In this document: positions 2,231 to 64,000 of the stretch, in pieces | Layout of the letters: every line of letters starts with the position of its first letter | How positions within the stretch are numbered: the stretch's first letter is position 1 | Assembly: GCF_014779595.1 (NCBI RefSeq) | Contig: NZ_JACXZT010000018.1 | Coordinates: 1-64,000, forward strand | DNA length: 64,000 nt | Direction: 5' to 3' | Source: Halomonas sp. ML-15 | Lineage (GTDB): Bacteria > Pseudomonadota > Gammaproteobacteria > Pseudomonadales > Halomonadaceae | The notes under the pieces: generated by a model | Told to the model about the DNA's origin: nothing | Seen by the model: the letters and a program-made list of their open reading frames with translations, nothing else | Database searches by the model: none | Program-made: the position numbers and the translations under genes

Positions 2231-3142
2231 ATGCCGCTGCTCTACTTTCTCGCTCCGCTGGGTGCCGTGTTGATCTGGTCGGGCAACATGACCATCAACC
2301 AGCTCACCGTAGGCGCCATCGCGCCGAGCAGCATCGCCTTTCTGCGCTGGGTGCTGGCCCTGGCCGTGCTGACGCCCTTCGTGCTGCCGGCGGTGTGGCG
2401 CCATCGCCAGGCGCTCAAGCGCGAGTGGCCCAAGCTGGCCTTCCTCGGCCTGCTGGGCATGGCAATGTGGCAGGGATTGGCCTATGTGGCCGCCGAGACC
2501 ACCTCGGCCACCAATATGGGCATTCTTGCCGCCACCGTGCCGTTGCTTACGGTGCTGCTTAGCGCATTGATTCTGCGCGAACCACCCAGCCTCGGCGGCG
2601 TGGTCGGCGGACTTGTCGCTCTCTGCGGGGTGGCGGTACTGCTTGGCCGCGGCGACCCACTGTCGCTGCTGGCACTCGATGTGTCGCTGGGCGATGCGCT
2701 GATGGTAGTCGCCGCCACCTGCTACGCCACCTATGGGGTGATGCTCAAGCGCTGGCAGATGGAGCTGCCGCCCTGGGTGATGCTCTATGTCCAGGCGGTT
2801 TTCGCCACCCTGCTGCTGCTGCCCGGCTATCTGCTCGGGCCGATGACCCCGGTGGACGCCGGTAATGTCTGGCTGATCGCCTATGCCGGCATTCCCGCCT
2901 CGATCATCACCACCTTTCTATGGATGCGCGCGGTGCGCCAGATCGGCGCCAGCAAGGCCAGCATCTTCCTCAACCTCATGCCGCTGTTCAGCGCCATCAT
3001 CGCCATGCTGTTCCTCGGCGAGCGCCTGGCCAGCTGGCATCTGCTCGGCGGTGGCCTGACGCTAGTCGGCGTGATCATGGCCCAGACCTTGACCCAGCCC
3101 CTGCGGCGCAGCCCCCAACCCAACGAGCAGGGCCAGCCATGA
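2231..3142 (+). CDS. EamA/DMT-superfamily transporter
   Basis: A 303-residue polytopic inner-membrane protein with two EamA repeats, about ten hydrophobic helices in all (roughly 5-135 and 150-290). The family comprises metabolite exporters of the drug/metabolite transporter superfamily; the substrate is unknown. A GAGGT site precedes the ATG. The stop overlaps the chaC start by four bases (ATGA), so the two are translationally coupled. The arginine- and proline-rich tail after the last helix looks cytoplasmic. Confidence 0.9.
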   Translation: MPLLYFLAPLGAVLIWSGNMTINQLTVGAIAPSSIAFLRWVLALAVLTPFVLPAVWRHRQALKREWPKLAFLGLLGMAMWQGLAYVAAETTSATNMGILAATVPLLTVLLSALILREPPSLGGVVGGLVALCGVAVLLGRGDPLSLLALDVSLGDALMVVAATCYATYGVMLKRWQMELPPWVMLYVQAVFATLLLLPGYLLGPMTPVDAGNVWLIAYAGIPASIITTFLWMRAVRQIGASKASIFLNLMPLFSAIIAMLFLGERLASWHLLGGGLTLVGVIMAQTLTQPLRRSPQPNEQGQP

Positions 3143-3705
3143 CCCTCGACACCCGCCTGATCAATCAACAGCGCATGCCCATCGACGACAGCGCTGAGCT
3201 GTGGCTGTTCGGCTACGGCTCGCTGATCTGGAAGGCCGGCTTTGACTATCTGGAGCGACGCCCTGCGCATATCGAAGGCTGGGCGCGGCGTTTCTGGCAG
3301 GCCTCCCATGACCATCGCGGCACCCCTGAGGCCCCCGGCCGCGTGGTCACCCTGATACGCCAGCCAGGCGCGCTCTGCCAGGGCATGGCCTATCGCATCG
3401 GCGGTGAGGTGCTGGGCGGCCTGGATATTCGCGAAAAGAACGGTTACCTGCGCGAAACGACGCTGATGCACTTCGCCGACGGCAGCCATGCCGAAGGCCT
3501 CCTCTACCTCGCCACTCAGAACAACGCCGCCTTTCTTGGTGACGCCCCACTCGACACCATGGCCCGCCAGATCGCCACCGCCCAGGGCCCCAGTGGCCCC
3601 AACCGCGACTACCTGCTCAACCTCGCAACCGCTTTGGAAGATCTCGGCGCCGACGATCCGCATGTGTTCGCGTTGGCAGACAGCGTTAGCAGAATGAAAC
3701 CGTAG
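3139..3705 (+). CDS. chaC: Gamma-glutamylcyclotransferase, ChaC family
   Basis: A 188-residue cytosolic enzyme predicted to degrade glutathione to 5-oxoproline and Cys-Gly. The substrate-binding loop GYGSLIW is at 25-31. The catalytic glutamate is Glu99 in LDIREKNGY, matching the family REx-GY motif. The start was set at the ATG overlapping the EamA stop, because the open frame extends upstream into EamA coding sequence with no family similarity. The link with an exporter may reflect glutathione or thiol turnover, but that is inference. Confidence 0.92.
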   Translation: MTLDTRLINQQRMPIDDSAELWLFGYGSLIWKAGFDYLERRPAHIEGWARRFWQASHDHRGTPEAPGRVVTLIRQPGALCQGMAYRIGGEVLGGLDIREKNGYLRETTLMHFADGSHAEGLLYLATQNNAAFLGDAPLDTMARQIATAQGPSGPNRDYLLNLATALEDLGADDPHVFALADSVSRMKP

Positions 3706-3797
3706 TTAATCGTAAAGTTACCCTCGCTGCGACCGATAACCCTTGGAGAACACTGTAGCGATAGAAACGGTGTCATCACTGTCAGGGAAATCACGCC

Positions 3798-5024
3798 ATG
3801 AAAGAGACCTTGCTCAGCGAGGTCGAAGCCAACCTGCTCAAGCCTTGGTATCGCCTGCGCTTTAGTCCAGCGGTGGAGACACGCTTCGAGACCGACACCT
3901 CCATCCAGCGCAGCAAGCATCTCGTCTTGACGGGCATCGTGGCGCTGATCATCTACGATCTCTTCGTCTTCTACGACTACATCTTTCGTCAGGAGACCTG
4001 GAGCATCGCCGCCTGGATTCGTTTAGGGATGGTGACCCCTGTGGGTCTCGCGTGCCTCTACTGCGTCAGCCGTCACCTGAGACCGGCGCTGCGTGAGGCA
4101 ATGATGGCGGTCGCGATCCTGATTGCGATGCTGTTCTCCAATGTGATCTTCTACGTCTCCAAGTCGCCCTACTCCTTTCTCGACACCTTCGCCTTCGGCC
4201 TGATTCCGCTGGTGAGCAATGTCGTCTTTTCGCTGCGTTTTGCGTTTGCTGTCGTAACGTCGCTGCTGTGCGGGCTGATCATGGCCGCCTTCGTGGTGGC
4301 GTATCAGCCGATGGCATTCGAAGTGAAGGTCTATACCCTTGCCCTGTTCGCCTCCAATGTGGTCTTCACGTTGCTTGCCAATTTCCGTTTGGAAGCCAGT
4401 GAGCGCCAGTCGTACCTGCTGCTGCTACGCAAGCAGCTAAGAGCGAACGCCGCTCAGGCCGAGTATCAGGCACTAACCAAGATTTCGATTACCGACCCGC
4501 TGACCGGAGTGGCCAACCGTCGCCACTTCGACAACGTGCTTGCGCAGCGCTGGGAGGCCGCCATCGCCAAACAGGCGATGGTTGGCATGCTGGTGATCGA
4601 TATTGACTACTTCAAGTTCTACAACGATCGCTACGGGCACCTGCAGGGGGATAACTGCCTCCGCCAGGTGGCGCTGGAAATACAGCAGCACGTGCGCCAG
4701 GAGGATGACCTGGTGGTGCGCTACGGCGGTGAAGAGTTCGTGGTGCTATTGCCCAATGCCTCGGTTTCCTCGACCTACCAGGCCACCGAACGTGTTCGCC
4801 AGGGCATAGAGGCGCTTGGGCTACCCAACGAAGATGCCCCGAACAGCCCCGTCGTCACGGTGAGCATTGGCGCCGCGGTGATTCGGCCCGTCCACGGCAT
4901 GGCGCCCTCCGCACTGATCCTGCATGCCGACGAAGCGCTCTACCAAGCCAAGCGCGCCGGCCGTAATCGCAGCGTGCTGGCACCGCTGCATGAGGGGCCT
5001 CTGGTTACTTACATAGCACGTTAG
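3798..5024 (+). CDS. Membrane-bound diguanylate cyclase (GGDEF domain)
   Basis: A 408-residue protein predicted to make cyclic di-GMP. The N-terminal half (about 35-205) holds roughly six hydrophobic segments with no recognisable sensory domain. The GGDEF domain follows, starting at DPLTGVANRRHF. The active-site loop reads GGEEF at 310-314, so catalysis is expected. The RxxD inhibitory site normally five residues upstream reads QEDD, with the arginine one position off, so product inhibition may be lost. An AGGGAA site lies 5' of the ATG. It stands alone, convergent with tctA. Confidence 0.92.
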   Translation: MKETLLSEVEANLLKPWYRLRFSPAVETRFETDTSIQRSKHLVLTGIVALIIYDLFVFYDYIFRQETWSIAAWIRLGMVTPVGLACLYCVSRHLRPALREAMMAVAILIAMLFSNVIFYVSKSPYSFLDTFAFGLIPLVSNVVFSLRFAFAVVTSLLCGLIMAAFVVAYQPMAFEVKVYTLALFASNVVFTLLANFRLEASERQSYLLLLRKQLRANAAQAEYQALTKISITDPLTGVANRRHFDNVLAQRWEAAIAKQAMVGMLVIDIDYFKFYNDRYGHLQGDNCLRQVALEIQQHVRQEDDLVVRYGGEEFVVLLPNASVSSTYQATERVRQGIEALGLPNEDAPNSPVVTVSIGAAVIRPVHGMAPSALILHADEALYQAKRAGRNRSVLAPLHEGPLVTYIAR

Positions 5025-56771: not shown

Positions 56772-57770
56772 ATGCTCAGCGACTGGCTCGATTTAACCCT
56801 GGACGGCAACGCCAGCGGCGCCCTTGAGGGCCGCTTGGCATCCGGCAGCTATCGCTGCCACTCCGCCGGCATTCTCGAGCTGACGCCGGACGCCCCCAGC
56901 CCCGGCGCCTTCGCCTGCGTGATCTCCGCCGGTATTCACGGCAATGAAACCGCCCCCATCGAACTGATCGGCGAGCTACTGGCCCGCCTCGAGGCCGGCA
57001 AGCTGTCACTCGGCGCACCGCTGCTGATACTGCTGGGCAATATCCCGGCGATTCGCCAATCGCAGCGCTTTATCAGCACCAATCTCAACCGGCTGTTTCG
57101 CCGCGATCTGGCCCTCGAGGGCGACGAACCCGAGCGAGCGCGGGCGCTGATGGCTAGCGTCGATACCTTCTTCCAGCGCCACGCCGACCGACCGCGACTG
57201 CACTACGACCTGCATACCGCCATCCGCAACAGCCGCTACCCGCGCTTCGTGGTGGAGCCGTTTGCCGATACCAGCACGTCGGCCGAGCAGTGGCAGTGGT
57301 TTGCCGCCGCCGAGATGCAGGCGGTACTCCATCAGCATCAGCGCAGCTGGACCTTTTCCCATTACTCGAAGCACTACCATGGCGCCCAGGCGTTCACCCT
57401 CGAGCTGGGCCGTGTCGCCCCCTTCGGCCACAATGACATGGCCGCCCTGCGACCACTGCGCCACCTGCTCGACGCCCTGCTGGAGGGACGCGAGCCGCCG
57501 CGCGGCGACCCTCGGCGCATGGCCTTCTTCCGTGTCGAGCAGGAGCTGATGCGTCAGGCCGAGGAGTTCAGCCTGTGCTTCGCCGACGATGTGGCCAACT
57601 TCACGGAATTCCCTCCCGGCACTCGCCTGGCCCATGACGCCGTGGCAGGTGACTGCGTGGTCGGCGACCAGCCGCTGGCGGTGGTATTCCCCAATGCCGA
57701 GGTCGAGCTGGGTGCCCGCGCAGCGCTGCTGGTAAAAGCAACCGAGGCACCGGCAGATGGCATCGACTAG
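56772..57770 (+). CDS. astE: Succinylglutamate desuccinylase AstE
   Basis: A 332-residue zinc hydrolase that completes the arginine succinyltransferase pathway, releasing glutamate and succinate. Zinc ligands are His56 and Glu59 (GIHGNETAP) and His148 (HYDLHTAIRNS); the catalytic glutamate is Glu211 in ELGRVAPFG. The other ast genes are not in the window. Its position in front of an ABC transporter of the lysine/arginine/ornithine class supports a role in basic amino-acid use. Confidence 0.93.
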   Translation: MLSDWLDLTLDGNASGALEGRLASGSYRCHSAGILELTPDAPSPGAFACVISAGIHGNETAPIELIGELLARLEAGKLSLGAPLLILLGNIPAIRQSQRFISTNLNRLFRRDLALEGDEPERARALMASVDTFFQRHADRPRLHYDLHTAIRNSRYPRFVVEPFADTSTSAEQWQWFAAAEMQAVLHQHQRSWTFSHYSKHYHGAQAFTLELGRVAPFGHNDMAALRPLRHLLDALLEGREPPRGDPRRMAFFRVEQELMRQAEEFSLCFADDVANFTEFPPGTRLAHDAVAGDCVVGDQPLAVVFPNAEVELGARAALLVKATEAPADGID

Positions 57771-58799: not shown

Positions 58800-59501
58800 A
58801 TGCTTGACCTGCAAGGCTATGGCCCGCGGCTGATCGAAGGCGCCGGGGTCACCATTTCGCTGGCGCTGCTGTCGCTGATCCTGGCCATCGTGCTGGGGCT
58901 GCTCACCGCCAGCGCCAAGATGTCGCGCAGCTGGCTGCTGCACAAGCTCGCCACCCTCTACACCACGGTGATCCGTGGCGTGCCCGATCTGGTGCTGATG
59001 ATGCTGCTGTTCTTCGGCGGCCAGATGGCCCTCAACGTGGCCACCGACGCCCTCTACGACCGCTTCGGGGTGGACTGGTACATCAATCTCAACGCCTTTG
59101 CCGCCGGGGTGATCACCATCGGCTTCATCTTCGGCGCCTATATGGGCGAGACCTTTCGCGGTGCCTTCCTGGCCGTCGACGGCGGCCAGATCGAGGCCGG
59201 TAAAGCCTACGGCATGAGCGACTGGCTGGTGTTCCGACGCATCCGCTTCCCGCTGATGATGCGCCACGCCCTGCCCGGCCTCTCCAACAACTGGATGGTA
59301 CTGCTCAAGACCACCGCGCTGGTCTCGGTAATCGGCCTCTCGGATATGGTGCGGGTGGCCGCCGAGGCGTCCCGCGCCACCCATGAGCCCTTTACCTTCC
59401 TGCTGCCAGTCGCGGCCATCTACCTGCTGATCGCCAGCGTCTCGGAGTGGCTCTTCGCGCGGCTGCAGAAGCGCTACAACGTCGGCTTCGGAGGGCACTG
59501 A
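58800..59501 (+). CDS. Basic amino-acid ABC transporter permease (HisQ/AotQ-like)
   Basis: A 233-residue permease with about five helices and the polar amino-acid transporter EAA loop QIEAGKAYGMSDWLVFRRIRFPLMMRHALPG. The IRGVPDLVLMMLLFFGGQM segment matches HisQ/ArtQ-type permeases. It is 16 bases after the ATPase gene and one base before the second permease. Confidence 0.93.
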   Translation: MLDLQGYGPRLIEGAGVTISLALLSLILAIVLGLLTASAKMSRSWLLHKLATLYTTVIRGVPDLVLMMLLFFGGQMALNVATDALYDRFGVDWYINLNAFAAGVITIGFIFGAYMGETFRGAFLAVDGGQIEAGKAYGMSDWLVFRRIRFPLMMRHALPGLSNNWMVLLKTTALVSVIGLSDMVRVAAEASRATHEPFTFLLPVAAIYLLIASVSEWLFARLQKRYNVGFGGH

Positions 59502-59502
59502 C

Positions 59503-60225
59503 ATGGAACTCACGACCTGGTTTACCGACCTGCTCGACGGCAACCTGATCTTCACCCCGCAGACCCTGGGTTACTACTGGGACGGCCTGGTGACCACCTC
59601 CCAACTGGTGTTCCTGTCGCTGCTCGCCGGCCTGGTACTGGCAGTACCGCTGGCCATCGGCCGCAGCTCCCGGCACCGCTGGATCAGCCTGCCGATCTAC
59701 GCCTACACCTATGTCTTCCGCGGCACCCCGCTGCTGATCCAGCTCTATATCATCTACTACGGGGTGGTGTTCGTGGACGGCATCCAGGAGTCGATCTTCT
59801 GGCCGCTGCTGCGTGAAGCCTTCTTCCCGGCGCTGATCGCCTTCACCCTCAATACCGCCGCCTATACCACCGAGATATTCCGCGGCGCGATCAAGGCCAC
59901 CGCCCGCGGCGAGATCGAGGCGGCCCGCGCCTACGGCATGTCCAACGCCCTGATGATGCGACGTATCGTGCTACCCAGTGCCTTTCGTCGCGCGCTGCCG
60001 GCCTACGGCAACGAGGTGATCTTCATGCTCCACGCCAGCGCGATTGCCAGCGTGGTCACGCTGATGGACCTGACCGGGGCAGCACGCTTCGTCTATGCGC
60101 GTTTCTATGCGCCGTTCGAGGCCTTCCTGTTCGTGGCGGCGATCTACCTGTGCCTGACCTTCGCCATCCTCTACTTCTTCCGCTTTCTCGAGAAGCGGCT
60201 GCTGGCGCACCTCAGGCCGGCATGA
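59503..60225 (+). CDS. Basic amino-acid ABC transporter permease (HisM/AotM-like)
   Basis: A 240-residue permease with about five helices. RGTPLLIQLYIIYYG and the EAA loop EIEAARAYGMSNALMMRRIVLPSAFRRALPAYGNE identify the HisM/AotM class. It starts right after the preceding stop. Together with HisQ-type and HisP-type partners it forms one importer that could be served by all three following binding proteins. Confidence 0.93.
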   Translation: MELTTWFTDLLDGNLIFTPQTLGYYWDGLVTTSQLVFLSLLAGLVLAVPLAIGRSSRHRWISLPIYAYTYVFRGTPLLIQLYIIYYGVVFVDGIQESIFWPLLREAFFPALIAFTLNTAAYTTEIFRGAIKATARGEIEAARAYGMSNALMMRRIVLPSAFRRALPAYGNEVIFMLHASAIASVVTLMDLTGAARFVYARFYAPFEAFLFVAAIYLCLTFAILYFFRFLEKRLLAHLRPA

Positions 60226-60360: not shown

Positions 60361-61131
60361 ATGAAAAAACTGCTTACCATCTCGATTCTCGGCGCTGCCA
60401 TGGTCGCCGGCACCGCCCAGGCCCGCGATTACGACCACGTGCGCTTCGGCGTCGACGTGCCCTACGAGCCGATGGAGTACCGCACCCCGGACGGTGAACT
60501 GACCGGTTTCGATATCGACCTGGGCAACGCCCTGTGCGAGGAGATCGGCATCACCTGCGAGTGGATCGTACAGGAGTGGGACGGCATCATCCCCGGCCTG
60601 ATGTCGCGCAACTATGACGCCATCATGTCGTCGATGACCATCAACGACGAGCGTCGCCAGACGGTGCTCTTCTCCGACCCCTACTTCACTCCGCCGTCGG
60701 CCTGGTTCGCGCCAGCAGACAGCGAGCTTGAAGACGCCACCGAAGAGAGCCTCGACGGCAAGACCATCGGCGTGCAGCGCGGTACCCTGCAGGACAACTT
60801 CGCCACCGACATGTTTGGCAGCGTGGCCAGCGTCAGCCGCTACTCCACCGCCGACGACATGGTGCTGGACATGGAAGCCGGGCGCCTGGATATCCTGTTC
60901 CTCGACTACCCGGTGGGCAAGTCGACGCTGCTCGACAGCGAAAGCCGCGACTACAAAGTCGTCGGCGAGATGCTCACCGAGCCCAAGGAGTACTTCGGTG
61001 ACGGCTTCGGCATCGCCTTCCGCCAGCGCGACGAGGCGCTCGCCGAGCGCTTCAACGAGGCCTTGGCCACCCTGCAGGACGACGGCACCTACGACGAGAT
61101 CTACGAGCGCTATTTCAGCGACGACGAGTAA
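60361..61131 (+). CDS. Basic amino-acid-binding protein, paralogue 1 (ArgT/AotJ-like)
   Basis: A 256-residue periplasmic family-3 binding protein with a signal peptide ending at AQA-RD (about 20). It carries the LAO-type pattern FGVDVPYEPMEYRTPDGELTGFDIDLGNALC with the disulfide-like Cys pair in ALCEEIGITCEW. It is very acidic. A promoter-length gap of 135 bases separates it from the permease. Closest relatives are the paralogues at 61248 and 62533. Confidence 0.93.
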   Translation: MKKLLTISILGAAMVAGTAQARDYDHVRFGVDVPYEPMEYRTPDGELTGFDIDLGNALCEEIGITCEWIVQEWDGIIPGLMSRNYDAIMSSMTINDERRQTVLFSDPYFTPPSAWFAPADSELEDATEESLDGKTIGVQRGTLQDNFATDMFGSVASVSRYSTADDMVLDMEAGRLDILFLDYPVGKSTLLDSESRDYKVVGEMLTEPKEYFGDGFGIAFRQRDEALAERFNEALATLQDDGTYDEIYERYFSDDE

Positions 61132-61184
61132 TCTCGCGATGCGCTCCCGGCCCCGCCGGGCGCGTTTCTCCACCTGCCGTTGCC

Positions 61185-61210
61185 GCCGGCCTTGCGCCTG
61201 CAAGGCCGGC
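61185..61210 (+). promoter_or_regulatory. Intercistronic hairpin between binding-protein paralogues 1 and 2
   Basis: A perfect 10-bp stem (GCCGGCCTTG / CAAGGCCGGC) with a 6-base loop; a smaller CCCGGC-CCC-GCCGGG hairpin precedes it at 61146-61160. There is no T tract immediately after. It has the same position and kind as the other hairpins behind binding-protein genes. Confidence 0.6.
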
Positions 61211-61247
61211 ACCGCTTATCTTTATTCACAATAATAAGGACGTTTCC

Positions 61248-62015
61248 ATGTACCGCTATCTTGGCATCACCCTGCTTGGCGCCGCCCTGGTCGCCGGCAG
61301 CGCCCAGGCCCGCGACAGCTACGACCACGTGCGTTTTGGCGTCGACGTGCCCTACGAGCCGATGGAGTACCGCACTGCGGACGGTGAGCTGACCGGCTTC
61401 GACATCGACCTGGGCAACGCCCTGTGCGAGCAGATGGGCATCACCTGCGAATGGATCGAGCAGCAGTGGGACGGCATCATTCCCGGCCTGATGGCACGCA
61501 ACTACGACGCCATCATGTCGTCGATGACTATCAACGAGGAGCGCCGGGAGCAGGTACTGTTTTCCGATGCCTACCTGACGGTCCCCTCGGCCTGGTTCGC
61601 TCCCGAAGAGAGCGAGATCGACACCCCTGACGAGCAGACCCTCGACGGCCTGACCCTCGGCGTGCAGCGCGGCACCCTGCAGGACAGCTACGCCACCGAC
61701 TTCTACGGCGACGTGGCCAATGTGCGCCGCTACGCCACCGCCGACGACATGCTGCTCGACATGGAGTCGGGGCGTCTCGATCTGGTATTCGTCAACTATC
61801 CGGTGGGCAAGACCACCCTGCTCGACAGCGAGCGCGGCGACTATCGCGTGGTCGGCGAGATGATTCGCGAGCCCTACGAGTATTTCGGTGACGGCATCGC
61901 CATCGCCTTCCGGCCCCGCGACGAGGCACTCGCCGAGCGCTTCAACGAGGCGCTTGCCGAACTCCAGGAGAGCGGCGTCTACGACGAAATTCACGACCGC
62001 TACTTCAGCGAATAA
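61248..62015 (+). CDS. Basic amino-acid-binding protein, paralogue 2
   Basis: A 255-residue family-3 binding protein, nearly collinear with paralogue 1. VRFGVDVPYEPMEYRTADG and the C-terminal DEALAERFNEAL are shared; the signal peptide ends at AQA-RD. It has the same cysteine pair (ALCEQMGITCEW). Differences cluster in the segment after GQRGTLQD-like residues, where ligand contacts lie. AAGGACG precedes the ATG. The high likeness points to a recent tandem duplication. Confidence 0.93.
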   Translation: MYRYLGITLLGAALVAGSAQARDSYDHVRFGVDVPYEPMEYRTADGELTGFDIDLGNALCEQMGITCEWIEQQWDGIIPGLMARNYDAIMSSMTINEERREQVLFSDAYLTVPSAWFAPEESEIDTPDEQTLDGLTLGVQRGTLQDSYATDFYGDVANVRRYATADDMLLDMESGRLDLVFVNYPVGKTTLLDSERGDYRVVGEMIREPYEYFGDGIAIAFRPRDEALAERFNEALAELQESGVYDEIHDRYFSE

Positions 62016-62532
62016 GCCAGGGTACCGCGCCTGAAGATCGGCCCCGCCGTGAGGCGGAGCGCTTGACAGGCGCGGCCCGATCACGCATGTTTTCACGGTG
62101 GTTTCGACACCTGCAGAGGTTCACTTCCATGACCGTCCACCCCAGGATCGTCCAGACGAGTTTCGTTGAGAGCTTCTATCTCAGCGAATGGTTCGACGAA
62201 TAGCCCTCTCCCTCGGCCAGCCCTGGCCACTCGGCACTCCTGTGCCTGATACCGCTACTGCCGTCGCGATAAAGACACCTCTGGATTAACCCAGGACGTG
62301 ATTCGCTGACGCTACCCGCGGCCAACTCAACGCGTGACCAACAATCACAAGCTGCCACCGCGCGGCGACCTAGGCTCTGTCTGAAAAGTCGACGAGCGAG
62401 GGTCAGACAAGGCAAAAATCGGTGAGAAGACGGAGTTTACGGGTTGTAAATGAGTGCTTTGAGCCGATTTTTAACGCCGTATGGCCGAGCGCAGGCAGTT
62501 CTCGGACAAAGCCTAGACCTATGGAGATTCCC
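62016..62532 (+). other. Gap between binding-protein paralogues 2 and 3
   Basis: This 517-base gap begins with a structured segment at 62036-62082 (outer GATCGG / CCGATC, inner CCGCC-GTGA-GGCGG). It also has a 24-codon frame (62129-62203, GAGG 9 bases before the ATG) that I cannot support as a gene, and a MITE at 62373-62513. Nothing else recognisable was seen. Confidence 0.7.
62373..62513. mobile_element. MITE of the IS5/IS427 type, 141 bp
   Basis: The 17-bp terminal inverted repeats GGCTCTGTCTGAAAAGT and GGCTTTGTCCGAGAACT (13 of 17 matching) are flanked by TA on both sides (371-372 and 514-515), within CTAG-like target text. It has no coding capacity. Internal hairpins: AAAAATCGG (62414-62422) pairs with CCGATTTTT (62464-62472), and TTTAC / GTAAA at 62436-62450. 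The ends match the IS at 1-108, so a related transposase could move it. It stops 19 bases before the paralogue 3 ATG. Confidence 0.85.
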
Positions 62533-63318
62533 ATGCATTATTCCATGCTGCTGCTGAGCGCTACGCTCGGCGCCACCCTGATCACCGGCACCGCTCAAGC
62601 TCGCGACTACGACGAGGTTCGCCTCGGCGTTGATATTCCCTACGAACCCTTCATGTACCGCCAGGCCGACGGCGAACTGACCGGCTTCGAGATCGAACTC
62701 GGCGAGGCCGTCTGCGACTATCTCGACATCACCTGCAGCTGGGTCGAGCAGGACTGGGACGGCATCATTCCCGGCCTGATGGCGCGCAACTACGACGCCA
62801 TCATGTCGTCGATGGCGATCACCGAGGAGCGCGCCCAGCGAGTGCTGTTCTCCGAGCCCTACTACACCACCCCCAGTGCTTGGATCACCACCCACGAGCA
62901 TGATATCGATATCGATGATCGCGACAGCCTTGCTGGTCTGACGGTGGGCGTTCAGCGCGCTACCCTGCAGGACAACTACGTCACCGAACTGTATGGCGAC
63001 GTACTCGATATTCGCCGCTATACCGGTGTCGACGACGTGGTCACCGACCTGCGCGCCGGGCGCCTCGATCTGAGCTTCATGGACTACCCGATCGCCGAGT
63101 CGGCCATCGAGATCGACACCGAAGGTAGTGACTTCCAGCGCATCAGCGACTTTATCAAGGAGCCCGAGCATATCTTCGGCCAAGGCGTCGGCGTCGCCTT
63201 CCGCCCCCGTGACGAGGCCCTCGCGGAGCGCTTCAACGAGGCCCTGGCGGCACTCAAGGAGGACGGCACCTATGATGAGATCATGCAGCGGTACTTCAGC
63301 TACGACGTAAAACTCTAA
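62533..63318 (+). CDS. Basic amino-acid-binding protein, paralogue 3 (divergent)
   Basis: A 261-residue family-3 binding protein with a signal peptide ending at AQA-RD. It is clearly related to paralogues 1 and 2 but more divergent (VRLGVDIPYEPFMYRQADG, TTHEHDIDIDDRDSLAG in the hinge region, GVQRATLQD instead of GVQRGTLQD), so its ligand may differ. The Cys pair is kept (AVCDYLDITCSW). GGAG lies 7 bases before the ATG. The MITE upstream leaves only 19 bases of native leader. Confidence 0.92.
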   Translation: MHYSMLLLSATLGATLITGTAQARDYDEVRLGVDIPYEPFMYRQADGELTGFEIELGEAVCDYLDITCSWVEQDWDGIIPGLMARNYDAIMSSMAITEERAQRVLFSEPYYTTPSAWITTHEHDIDIDDRDSLAGLTVGVQRATLQDNYVTELYGDVLDIRRYTGVDDVVTDLRAGRLDLSFMDYPIAESAIEIDTEGSDFQRISDFIKEPEHIFGQGVGVAFRPRDEALAERFNEALAALKEDGTYDEIMQRYFSYDVKL

Positions 63319-63330
63319 CGTCACTCGCCC

Positions 63331-63364
63331 CCCATGGCGCCGGCTAGATGGCCGGCGTCATGGG
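63331..63364 (+). promoter_or_regulatory. Hairpin after binding-protein paralogue 3
   Basis: A 14-bp stem with one mismatch (CCCATGGCGCCGGC / GCCGGCGTCATGGG) and a 6-base loop, 12 bases after the stop. There is no T tract. It continues the pattern of hairpins behind binding-protein genes and lies before the peptidase gene. Confidence 0.6.
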
Positions 63365-63388: not shown

Positions 63389-64000
63389 ATGCTGACACTG
63401 CTCAAGAACGCCAACATTTACGCCCCCGAACCGCTGGGGCTATGCCACCTGCTGATTGCCGACCGGCGCATTGCCGCGATCAGCGCTGCACAGGAGCCCC
63501 CGCCCATTGACGGGTCCGCCGTCGAGGTGATCGACCTAGATGGCCGACGGGTGATCCCCGGTCTGGTCGACCCGCTGGTGCATATCACCGGCGGCGGCGG
63601 CGAAGGCGGCTTCGGTACACGCACCGCCGAGCTGACCAGCGCCGATGCACTCGCCTCCGGCGTCACCACCCTGGTGGCGGCGCTGGGCACCGATGCGCTG
63701 ACTCGCACCCCCGCCAATCTGATCGGCAAGGCGCGAGAACTCGCCGCCGCAGGCCTGAGCGTCTACGCCTACACCGGCTCCTATCAGCTGCCCCCGGTGA
63801 CCCTGACCGGCTCGGTGGCCAGCGATATCCTGTTCATCCCCGAGTTTATCGGCGTCGGCGAGGTCGCCATCAGCGATCATCGCGGCTCACAGCCCAGCGC
63901 CCAGGAATTGACCCGGCTCGCCTCGGAGGCGCGCACCGCTGGCCTGCTGGCCGGCAAGGCGGGAATCGTCTTCATCCACACCGGCGATGCCGAGACCCAT
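63389..64000 (+). CDS. Isoaspartyl dipeptidase (IadA)-like amidohydrolase, N-terminal part, first metal His replaced
   Basis: The first 204 residues, cut by the window edge. They follow IadA closely: LLKNANIYAPEPLG, GGGGEGGF, YTGSYQLPP, IGVGEVAISDHRGSQP. Equivalents of E. coli IadA His70, Glu77, Tyr137 and Glu162 are His65, Glu72, Tyr132 and Glu158. The first zinc histidine (His68, in QHVH) is Leu63 here (PLVH), so one metal site is incomplete. IadA normally removes isoaspartyl residues from dipeptides. It follows the amino-acid importer. Confidence 0.85.
   Translation, partial: MLTLLKNANIYAPEPLGLCHLLIADRRIAAISAAQEPPPIDGSAVEVIDLDGRRVIPGLVDPLVHITGGGGEGGFGTRTAELTSADALASGVTTLVAALGTDALTRTPANLIGKARELAAAGLSVYAYTGSYQLPPVTLTGSVASDILFIPEFIGVGEVAISDHRGSQPSAQELTRLASEARTAGLLAGKAGIVFIHTGDAETH

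Follow-up and report, generated by a model that had tools for sequence, protein, structure and literature searches.

The last gene in the window, by which we mean the whole 64,000-nucleotide stretch of DNA analyzed here (Halomonas sp. ML-15, NZ_JACXZT010000018.1, positions 1-64,000 of the forward strand), encodes a homolog of isoaspartyl dipeptidase (IadA) in which leucine stands in place of the first metal-binding histidine. This raises the question of whether the gene, here called iadA-L, is decaying, encodes a binding protein, or encodes an enzyme with an altered metal center. The window holds its first 204 codons, in a frame that reads ...VIPGLVDPLVHITGGGGEGGF... A genome search found the remainder past the window end, with the stop at contig position C16:64528, and the full gene read on contig C16 is intact, encoding 379 amino acids with no internal stop. 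The protein scores 404.1 bits against the IadA model TIGR01975, above the curated cut-off of 331.25, which places it in the IadA sequence family (peptidase family M38), as the original prediction had it. A TIGR01975 search of the genome identified iadA-L as the sole IadA, the other match being weak at 19.8 bits. The gene and its active-site codons in the window, the latter located by alignment with IadA, are as follows.

63389..64000, + strand: codons 1-204 (of 379) of iadA-L, the Leu-type isoaspartyl dipeptidase gene, open frame, TIGR01975 404.1 bits
63575..63577, + strand: codon CTG of Leu63, at the place of E. coli IadA (EcoIadA) His68
63581..63583, + strand: codon CAT of His65 (EcoIadA His70), the kept alpha-site ligand
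63602..63604, + strand: codon GAA of Glu72 (EcoIadA Glu77)
63782..63784, + strand: codon TAT of Tyr132 (EcoIadA Tyr137)
63860..63862, + strand: codon of Glu158 (EcoIadA carboxylated Lys162), the bridging ligand, Type I
63977..63979, + strand: codon CAC of His197 (EcoIadA His201), a beta-site ligand

Leu63 also aligns with the first histidine of the HxH motif in the solved IadA chains 7cdh, 7cf6, 8dqn, 5xgw, and 5xgx. The window protein reads Leu63-Val64-His65 at this motif instead of the HxH (His68 and His70) of canonical binuclear-zinc IadA, and reaching CTG from CAC or CAT requires two base changes; on both points the original prediction was correct. The remaining ligands, His226 (EcoIadA His230) and Asp287 (Asp285), are encoded beyond the window end, and both are kept. 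Also conserved are Glu72, Thr101, Tyr132, Arg165, Arg229, and Ser291, and the catalytic and substrate-binding residues of the IadA family are present at the places of E77, T106, Y137, R169, R233, D285, and S289. The prediction had rightly listed the equivalents of His70, Glu77, and Tyr137 as kept, but it had also named a Glu162, whereas E. coli IadA has a carboxylated Lys162 and glutamate at this place marks Type I IadA, according to the accessible part of PMC5517026. With Glu158 replacing the carboxylated lysine, the window protein is of Type I. The proline before Leu63 had been counted as part of the anomaly. It is not, since the Fervidobacterium enzyme (7cdh) reads DPHVH, in which Pro precedes an intact HxH, and the position is variable among homologs (P, S, G, A, T, or Q).

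The same replacement occurs in 94 of 177 distinct homologs that we aligned; 80 have His and three are unscored. Three copies of the window gene (L001, L003, and L005), another amidohydrolase (L004), and 11 identical proteins had been dropped from the pool before alignment. The unscored rows are L102, which is frameshifted and aligned as Thr, and L149 and L192, which have gaps; when these are read directly, L149 and L102 have Leu, and L192 is without that stretch. Because the residue at this position is what sorts the rows into groups, the figures of 94 and 80 are tallies and not a test; the trees described below provide the tests. The lowest identity of a Leu row to the window protein is 44%. 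A scan of genome contigs yielded at least 80 loci, and among the 80 matches listed, 38 have Leu and 42 have His. Within the Halomonadaceae, 58 of 151 genomes have a match at E 1e-40, and the 35 loci read comprise 15 Leu, 18 His, and 2 unread. All 15 readable Halomonadaceae rows with at least 74% identity to the query have Leu, and all rows with 46% or less have His. For the G497 family, a match at E 1e-40 was found in 98 of 246 genomes, the 65 loci read divide into 51 Leu and 14 His, and several of the family's IadA proteins have exact counterparts at named Alteromonadales loci. An even draw of the class gave matches at E 1e-40 in 8 of 369 genomes (the window's included), indicating that IadA is patchy in the class. 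Seven of 29 plasmid-record matches were fetched, of which three have Leu and four have His. Seven genomes carry both Leu and His types. Genome G652 has two different Leu-type iadA genes (L210 and L211), each near a cyanophycinase-like gene. A Photobacterium plasmid record (L220, positions 3001-4089) encodes an IadA with Lys near the place of the carboxylated lysine (GVKIALADHR); this protein is from the Vibrionaceae, whereas the available text of PMC5517026 confines Type II IadA to Enterobacteriales.

The residue at position 63 follows descent closely. On a tree of 110 rows, drawn from 174 rows and thinned at 82% identity, the residue label changes twice, compared with a mean of 36 changes for shuffled labels. 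On a tree of 64 rows, hand-picked for spread from 117 rows and built with the separating columns masked, it likewise changes twice, compared with 21 for shuffled labels. In the masked-column tree, the Leu types and the Bacillota His types fall on one side of a branch with support of 100/99, and in the best trees of both 110 and 64 rows the Bacillota His types are nested inside the Leu rows. A topology uniting all Leu rows in one clade is, however, not rejected (p-AU 0.181). The leucine may thus have a single origin, a single origin followed by a return to His in Bacillota, or several origins. The leucine codons in the 94 rows are CTG (44), TTA (16), TTG (14), CTT (9), CTC (8), and CTA (3), showing that leucine is retained even as its codon changes. 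Eight pairs were tried for dN/dS, and the seven that yielded an estimate range from 0.065 to 0.111. Given that all six Leu codons occur and that dN/dS is about 0.07-0.11, Leu63 is under selection. Among the Leu-type copies that we read, only L102 (Halomonadaceae, genome G040) is disrupted, by a frameshift just after the metal motif that may reflect either genuine breakage of the gene or a misassembly. Judging from these sequence comparisons, the LxH replacement is a real, selected variant of the IadA active site and not the mark of a damaged gene. It persists across numerous gammaproteobacterial relatives, largely marine, alongside genes for the uptake of arginine-rich nutrients.

The rest of the active site is constant in the Leu group, with the same residue in all 94 rows at the places of H70, E77, T106, Y137, K162 (Glu), R169, H201, H230, R233, D285, and S289. 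All 80 His rows share the Tyr at the Tyr137 place and the Glu at the Lys162 place; at the Ser289 place they vary (Ser in 63, Cys in 16, and Ala in 1). Every Leu row therefore retains a complete beta site and all but one of the four alpha-site ligands, namely His65, Glu158, and Asp287. We sought a compensating ligand in the alignment, taking as a separating column any residue common to more than 85% of Leu rows and held by fewer than 15% of His rows, and only residues 60 (Val/Ile) and 63 separate the groups. A structure model of a relative, L010 (Billgrantia, 80% identical to the window protein), built with 34 relatives, has a mean pLDDT of 93 and a pTM of 0.93. It has the fold of IadA, in that its 14 best solved entries are all IadA (Z 51.5-55.5), with an rmsd to 8dqn of 1.7 over 373 residues; the next families, dihydroorotase and enamidase, score about Z 31 (31.1).

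The original prediction held that the leucine breaks one site of the binuclear center. One metal site is indeed affected, but with three of four alpha ligands in all Leu rows, "breaks" is too strong. The published ligand lists pull in both directions. For CpsIadA, the part of PMC5517026 available to us gives His73, Glu166, and Asp293 at ZN1 and Glu166, His205, and His234 at ZN2; counting back from Glu80, His73 is the second histidine of the motif, so the first is omitted at ZN1, which speaks against a broken site. For LmIadA, the accessible text of PMC10206079 lists His64, His66, His198, His227, and Glu159 as metal ligands, and with both motif histidines included it disagrees with the CpsIadA text and speaks for a broken site. 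There is precedent for an amidohydrolase that lacks HxH and binds a single metal, at the beta site, in E. coli NagA, which has QxN instead (PMC3880350), and PpOngB is described as a beta-mononuclear amidohydrolase (PMC12017989). The chances that an LxH IadA would work with one metal or with two seem to us evenly balanced.

Next to iadA-L, on the same strand and to its 5' side, lie AstE-like, HisP/HisQ/HisM-like, and three binding-protein genes, listed here with the hairpin that follows the last of them.

56772..57770, + strand: AstE-like succinylglutamate desuccinylase, the best AstE match of the genome
58013..58783, + strand: HisP-like ATPase (profile match)
58800..59501, + strand: HisQ/ArtQ-like permease (profile match)
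59503..60225, + strand: HisM/ArtM-like permease (profile match)
60361..61131, + strand: first lysine/arginine/ornithine-type solute-binding protein (TIGR01096 240 bits, cut-off 256; PF00497 over cut-off)
61248..62015, + strand: second lysine/arginine/ornithine-type solute-binding protein (TIGR01096 213 bits, cut-off 256)
62533..63318, + strand: third lysine/arginine/ornithine-type solute-binding protein, adjoining iadA-L (TIGR01096 216 bits, cut-off 256)
63331..63364, + strand: 15-pair hairpin in the gap from the third binding-protein gene to iadA-L (DNA folding, z -4.4)

Apart from PF00497, the only cut-offs passed among the listed neighbor models are those of NF003706 (general AstE) and TIGR01726 (permease domain). 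The binding proteins and ABC genes do not reach the cut-offs of the specific models, so the substrates assigned to them are candidates. Three paralogous solute-binding proteins stand in tandem at 60361-63318, seemingly for one ABC transporter, which suggests several related ligands. The hairpin is without a T run, and different GC-rich inverted repeats were seen by eye in the gap 5' of iadA in the eight relatives inspected, of twelve sought; perhaps the hairpin tunes how much enzyme is made relative to binding protein. The genome has no strong AstE match other than that of the window, whose 292 bits fall slightly short of the equivalog cut-off; together with an AstB encoded elsewhere in the genome, this fits arginine use by the AST pathway. 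The locus may resemble the aot arginine-transport operon of Pseudomonas, which has an AstE-like member. The window genome has no match to the S51 family, and thus lacks the cyanophycinase near iadA that marks a cyanophycin utilization locus. The 15 matches to cyanophycin synthetase in this genome are all below cut-off, the best scoring 75 bits against 850. Given a genome without S51 and without a synthetase over cut-off, cyanophycin would need to be digested by other organisms.

We surveyed the genes within 7 kb of iadA in relatives, where flanks were often about 6 kb or less. Among 16 Halomonadaceae Leu loci (the window included), a binding protein is near in 16, a permease in 15, an ATPase in 15, AstE in 14, and S51 in none; three further Halomonadaceae Leu loci (L207-L209) have all four ABC and AstE parts. 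The Aeromonas Leu loci L081 and L217 also have ABC genes nearby. Outside the Halomonadaceae, 23 Leu loci (Aeromonas L081 included) have an S51 cyanophycinase-like gene near in 20, YfcC in 20, and a TonB receptor in 18, and six more (L203, L206, L210-L212, and L221) have them in 5, 5, and 4, respectively; the Shewanella locus L083, one of the 23, has none of the sought neighbors. In one annotated Pseudoalteromonas record, cyanophycinase, TonB receptor, YfcC, and iadA stand in a row. The S51 proteins of L040, L206, and L211 match TIGR02069 below its cut-off, PF03575 is matched over cut-off by that of L077 and by two of these three, and YfcC at L205 passes its model's cut-off. The complete S51 proteins at Leu loci have 415-648 residues, most of them 556-648, and most have signal-like N-termini as judged by eye.

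The His loci differ. All ten selected gammaproteobacterial His loci, seven of which were picked because the genome also has the Leu type, have a cyanophycin synthetase and a short cyanophycinase of about 270-290 residues. Cyanophycin synthetase is named for L201 and L198, and a scan of 93 further stretches, in part overlapping, gave no synthetase match. In 6 of the 10 His loci the short cyanophycinase escapes the S51 profile built from Leu loci; a short-cyanophycinase query finds it in all ten, and in no Bacillota beyond L041 and L079. Among 41 Bacillota His loci, S51 is near in these two, and YfcC is near in 22, which indicates that YfcC is not tied to Leu as such. Hits to the HisP profile occur in 20 of the 41 as well, and we take these as probable generic ABC ATPases. 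On the basis of these sampled neighbors, gammaproteobacterial His types go with the making and mobilizing of cyanophycin, and Leu types go with uptake. In the parts of the literature available to us, TonB receptors beside cyanophycinase are known in marine bacteria (PMC3400609), use of outside cyanophycin has been proposed for Thalassotalea (PMC7564069), and scavenging clusters containing iadA are named (PMC10206079). The accessible text of the last, a cyanophycin-locus paper, makes no mention of the Leu motif, and we found no mention of a Leu variant of IadA in the literature searched, a scope that took in few subscription papers.

How, then, is Leu63 to be explained? The odd residue itself and the frameshift in one relative (L102) might suggest a decaying gene or a sequencing error. 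We reject this explanation, whose probability we regard as negligible, because the frame of 379 amino acids is intact, Leu is common to 94 distinct homologs from many assemblies, dN/dS is 0.065-0.111, and six codons are used. The original prediction had likewise dismissed a sequencing error and had rightly proposed a survey of homologs as a check, and the other case it raised, a change confined to one sequence in a decaying gene, is excluded on the same grounds. It had also proposed a binding protein. One ligand is lost, as such an inactive binding or regulatory protein might allow, but the catalytic residues in all 94 Leu rows, the checked substrate residues, and the purifying selection disfavor it, as does its place on the same strand as transport and catabolic genes, and we consider it very improbable. 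A shift to a different reaction or substrate, such as some other N-acyl or isopeptide bond in place of that of isoaspartyl dipeptides, would suit a ligand change that has been long kept, the differing transporter contexts, and the presence of Leu and His types together in seven genomes, suggesting a division of labor. However, the checked substrate-binding residues are kept and the Alteromonadales neighbors point to beta-Asp-Arg, making this explanation unlikely, though less so than an inactive protein.

The more serious alternative, to which we give somewhat less than an even chance, is that the enzyme is fully binuclear and Leu63 nearly silent, the alpha metal being held by His65, Glu158, Asp287, and waters, with normal chemistry. 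The CpsIadA ZN1 site as given in the available text of PMC5517026 does without the first histidine, the three corresponding ligands are kept in every Leu row, and nothing seems to be compensated, since apart from residue 63 only residue 60 separates the groups. Against this, the accessible LmIadA text (PMC10206079) counts both motif histidines as ligands, and a silent leucine predicts frequent exchange of Leu and His; the trees show two changes, even though 17 of the 94 Leu rows use CTT or CTC, codons that a single base change would turn into His.

In the explanation that we favor as likely, the LxH protein represents a distinct kind of Type I isoaspartyl dipeptidase that is active, has a weakened alpha site, and acts on imported beta-Asp-Arg or beta-Asp-Lys. 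Its separate parts are held with different confidence: that an LxH IadA is an active beta-Asp dipeptidase is very probable, a cyanophycin-derived substrate in the Alteromonadales loci is quite likely, and beta-Asp-Arg or beta-Asp-Lys as the substrate in the window organism has about an even chance. The evidence that LxH IadA scavenges basic beta-aspartyl dipeptides is circumstantial. Under this model, the substrates would be the two dipeptides of which cyanophycin is made, beta-Asp-Arg or beta-Asp-Lys, or else different beta-Asp dipeptides. They would enter through a basic amino-acid importer, which in the window would be the HisQMP-type ABC system with its three binding proteins, and in Alteromonadales through the TonB receptor and YfcC following a seemingly secreted cyanophycinase. 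Leu63 would lower the affinity of the alpha site, giving a beta-mononuclear or asymmetric center in which a beta-site metal on Glu158, His197, and His226, together with a weaker or transient alpha metal on His65, Glu158, and Asp287, would activate water. Asp287 and Tyr132 would have their usual roles, and the products would be Asp and Arg, with Arg passing into the AST pathway. A bolder form of this model, which we offer as a doubtful possibility, is that LxH represents a natural beta-mononuclear or metal-switchable IadA that scavenges cyanophycin dipeptides, while a separate HxH kind, with two metals, handles the cyanophycin stored by the cell itself.

If such a division is true, both kinds are sometimes found within one genome, and the two gammaproteobacterial kinds of IadA would be linked to two uses of cyanophycin, namely scavenging and own storage. 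Should the best tree be correct, the histidine may have been restored in Bacillota, and the change would be reversible. LxH IadA would offer a natural, long-kept test of the need for the amidohydrolase alpha metal in a peptidase, with one ligand changed and HxH relatives on hand for comparison. The annotation "beta-aspartyl-peptidase" can mask such an altered metal site.

Compared with known systems, the window protein is closest in kind to the Type I enzymes CpsIadA (5xgw/5xgx), LmIadA (8dqn), and FiBAP (7cdh/7cf6), with which it shares the fold, the bridging Glu, and the other checked active-site residues; these chains are 39-41% identical to the L010 model and have HxH where the window protein has LxH. 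E. coli IadA (1onw, Type II) belongs to the same family and has the same fold, but it combines a carboxylated Lys162 with HxH (an E. coli copy reads DQHVH), whereas the window protein combines Glu158 with LxH. E. coli NagA is of the same superfamily and, in the text available, has lost HxH and holds one beta-site metal; it lacks both histidines (QxN), whereas the window protein lacks the first only, and the substrates differ. The cyanophycin utilization locus of Ben Hania 2017, as relayed in the accessible part of PMC10206079, combines cyanophycinase, iadA, and a transporter, as do the Alteromonadales Leu loci, whereas the window locus is without a cyanophycinase and has an ABC system instead.
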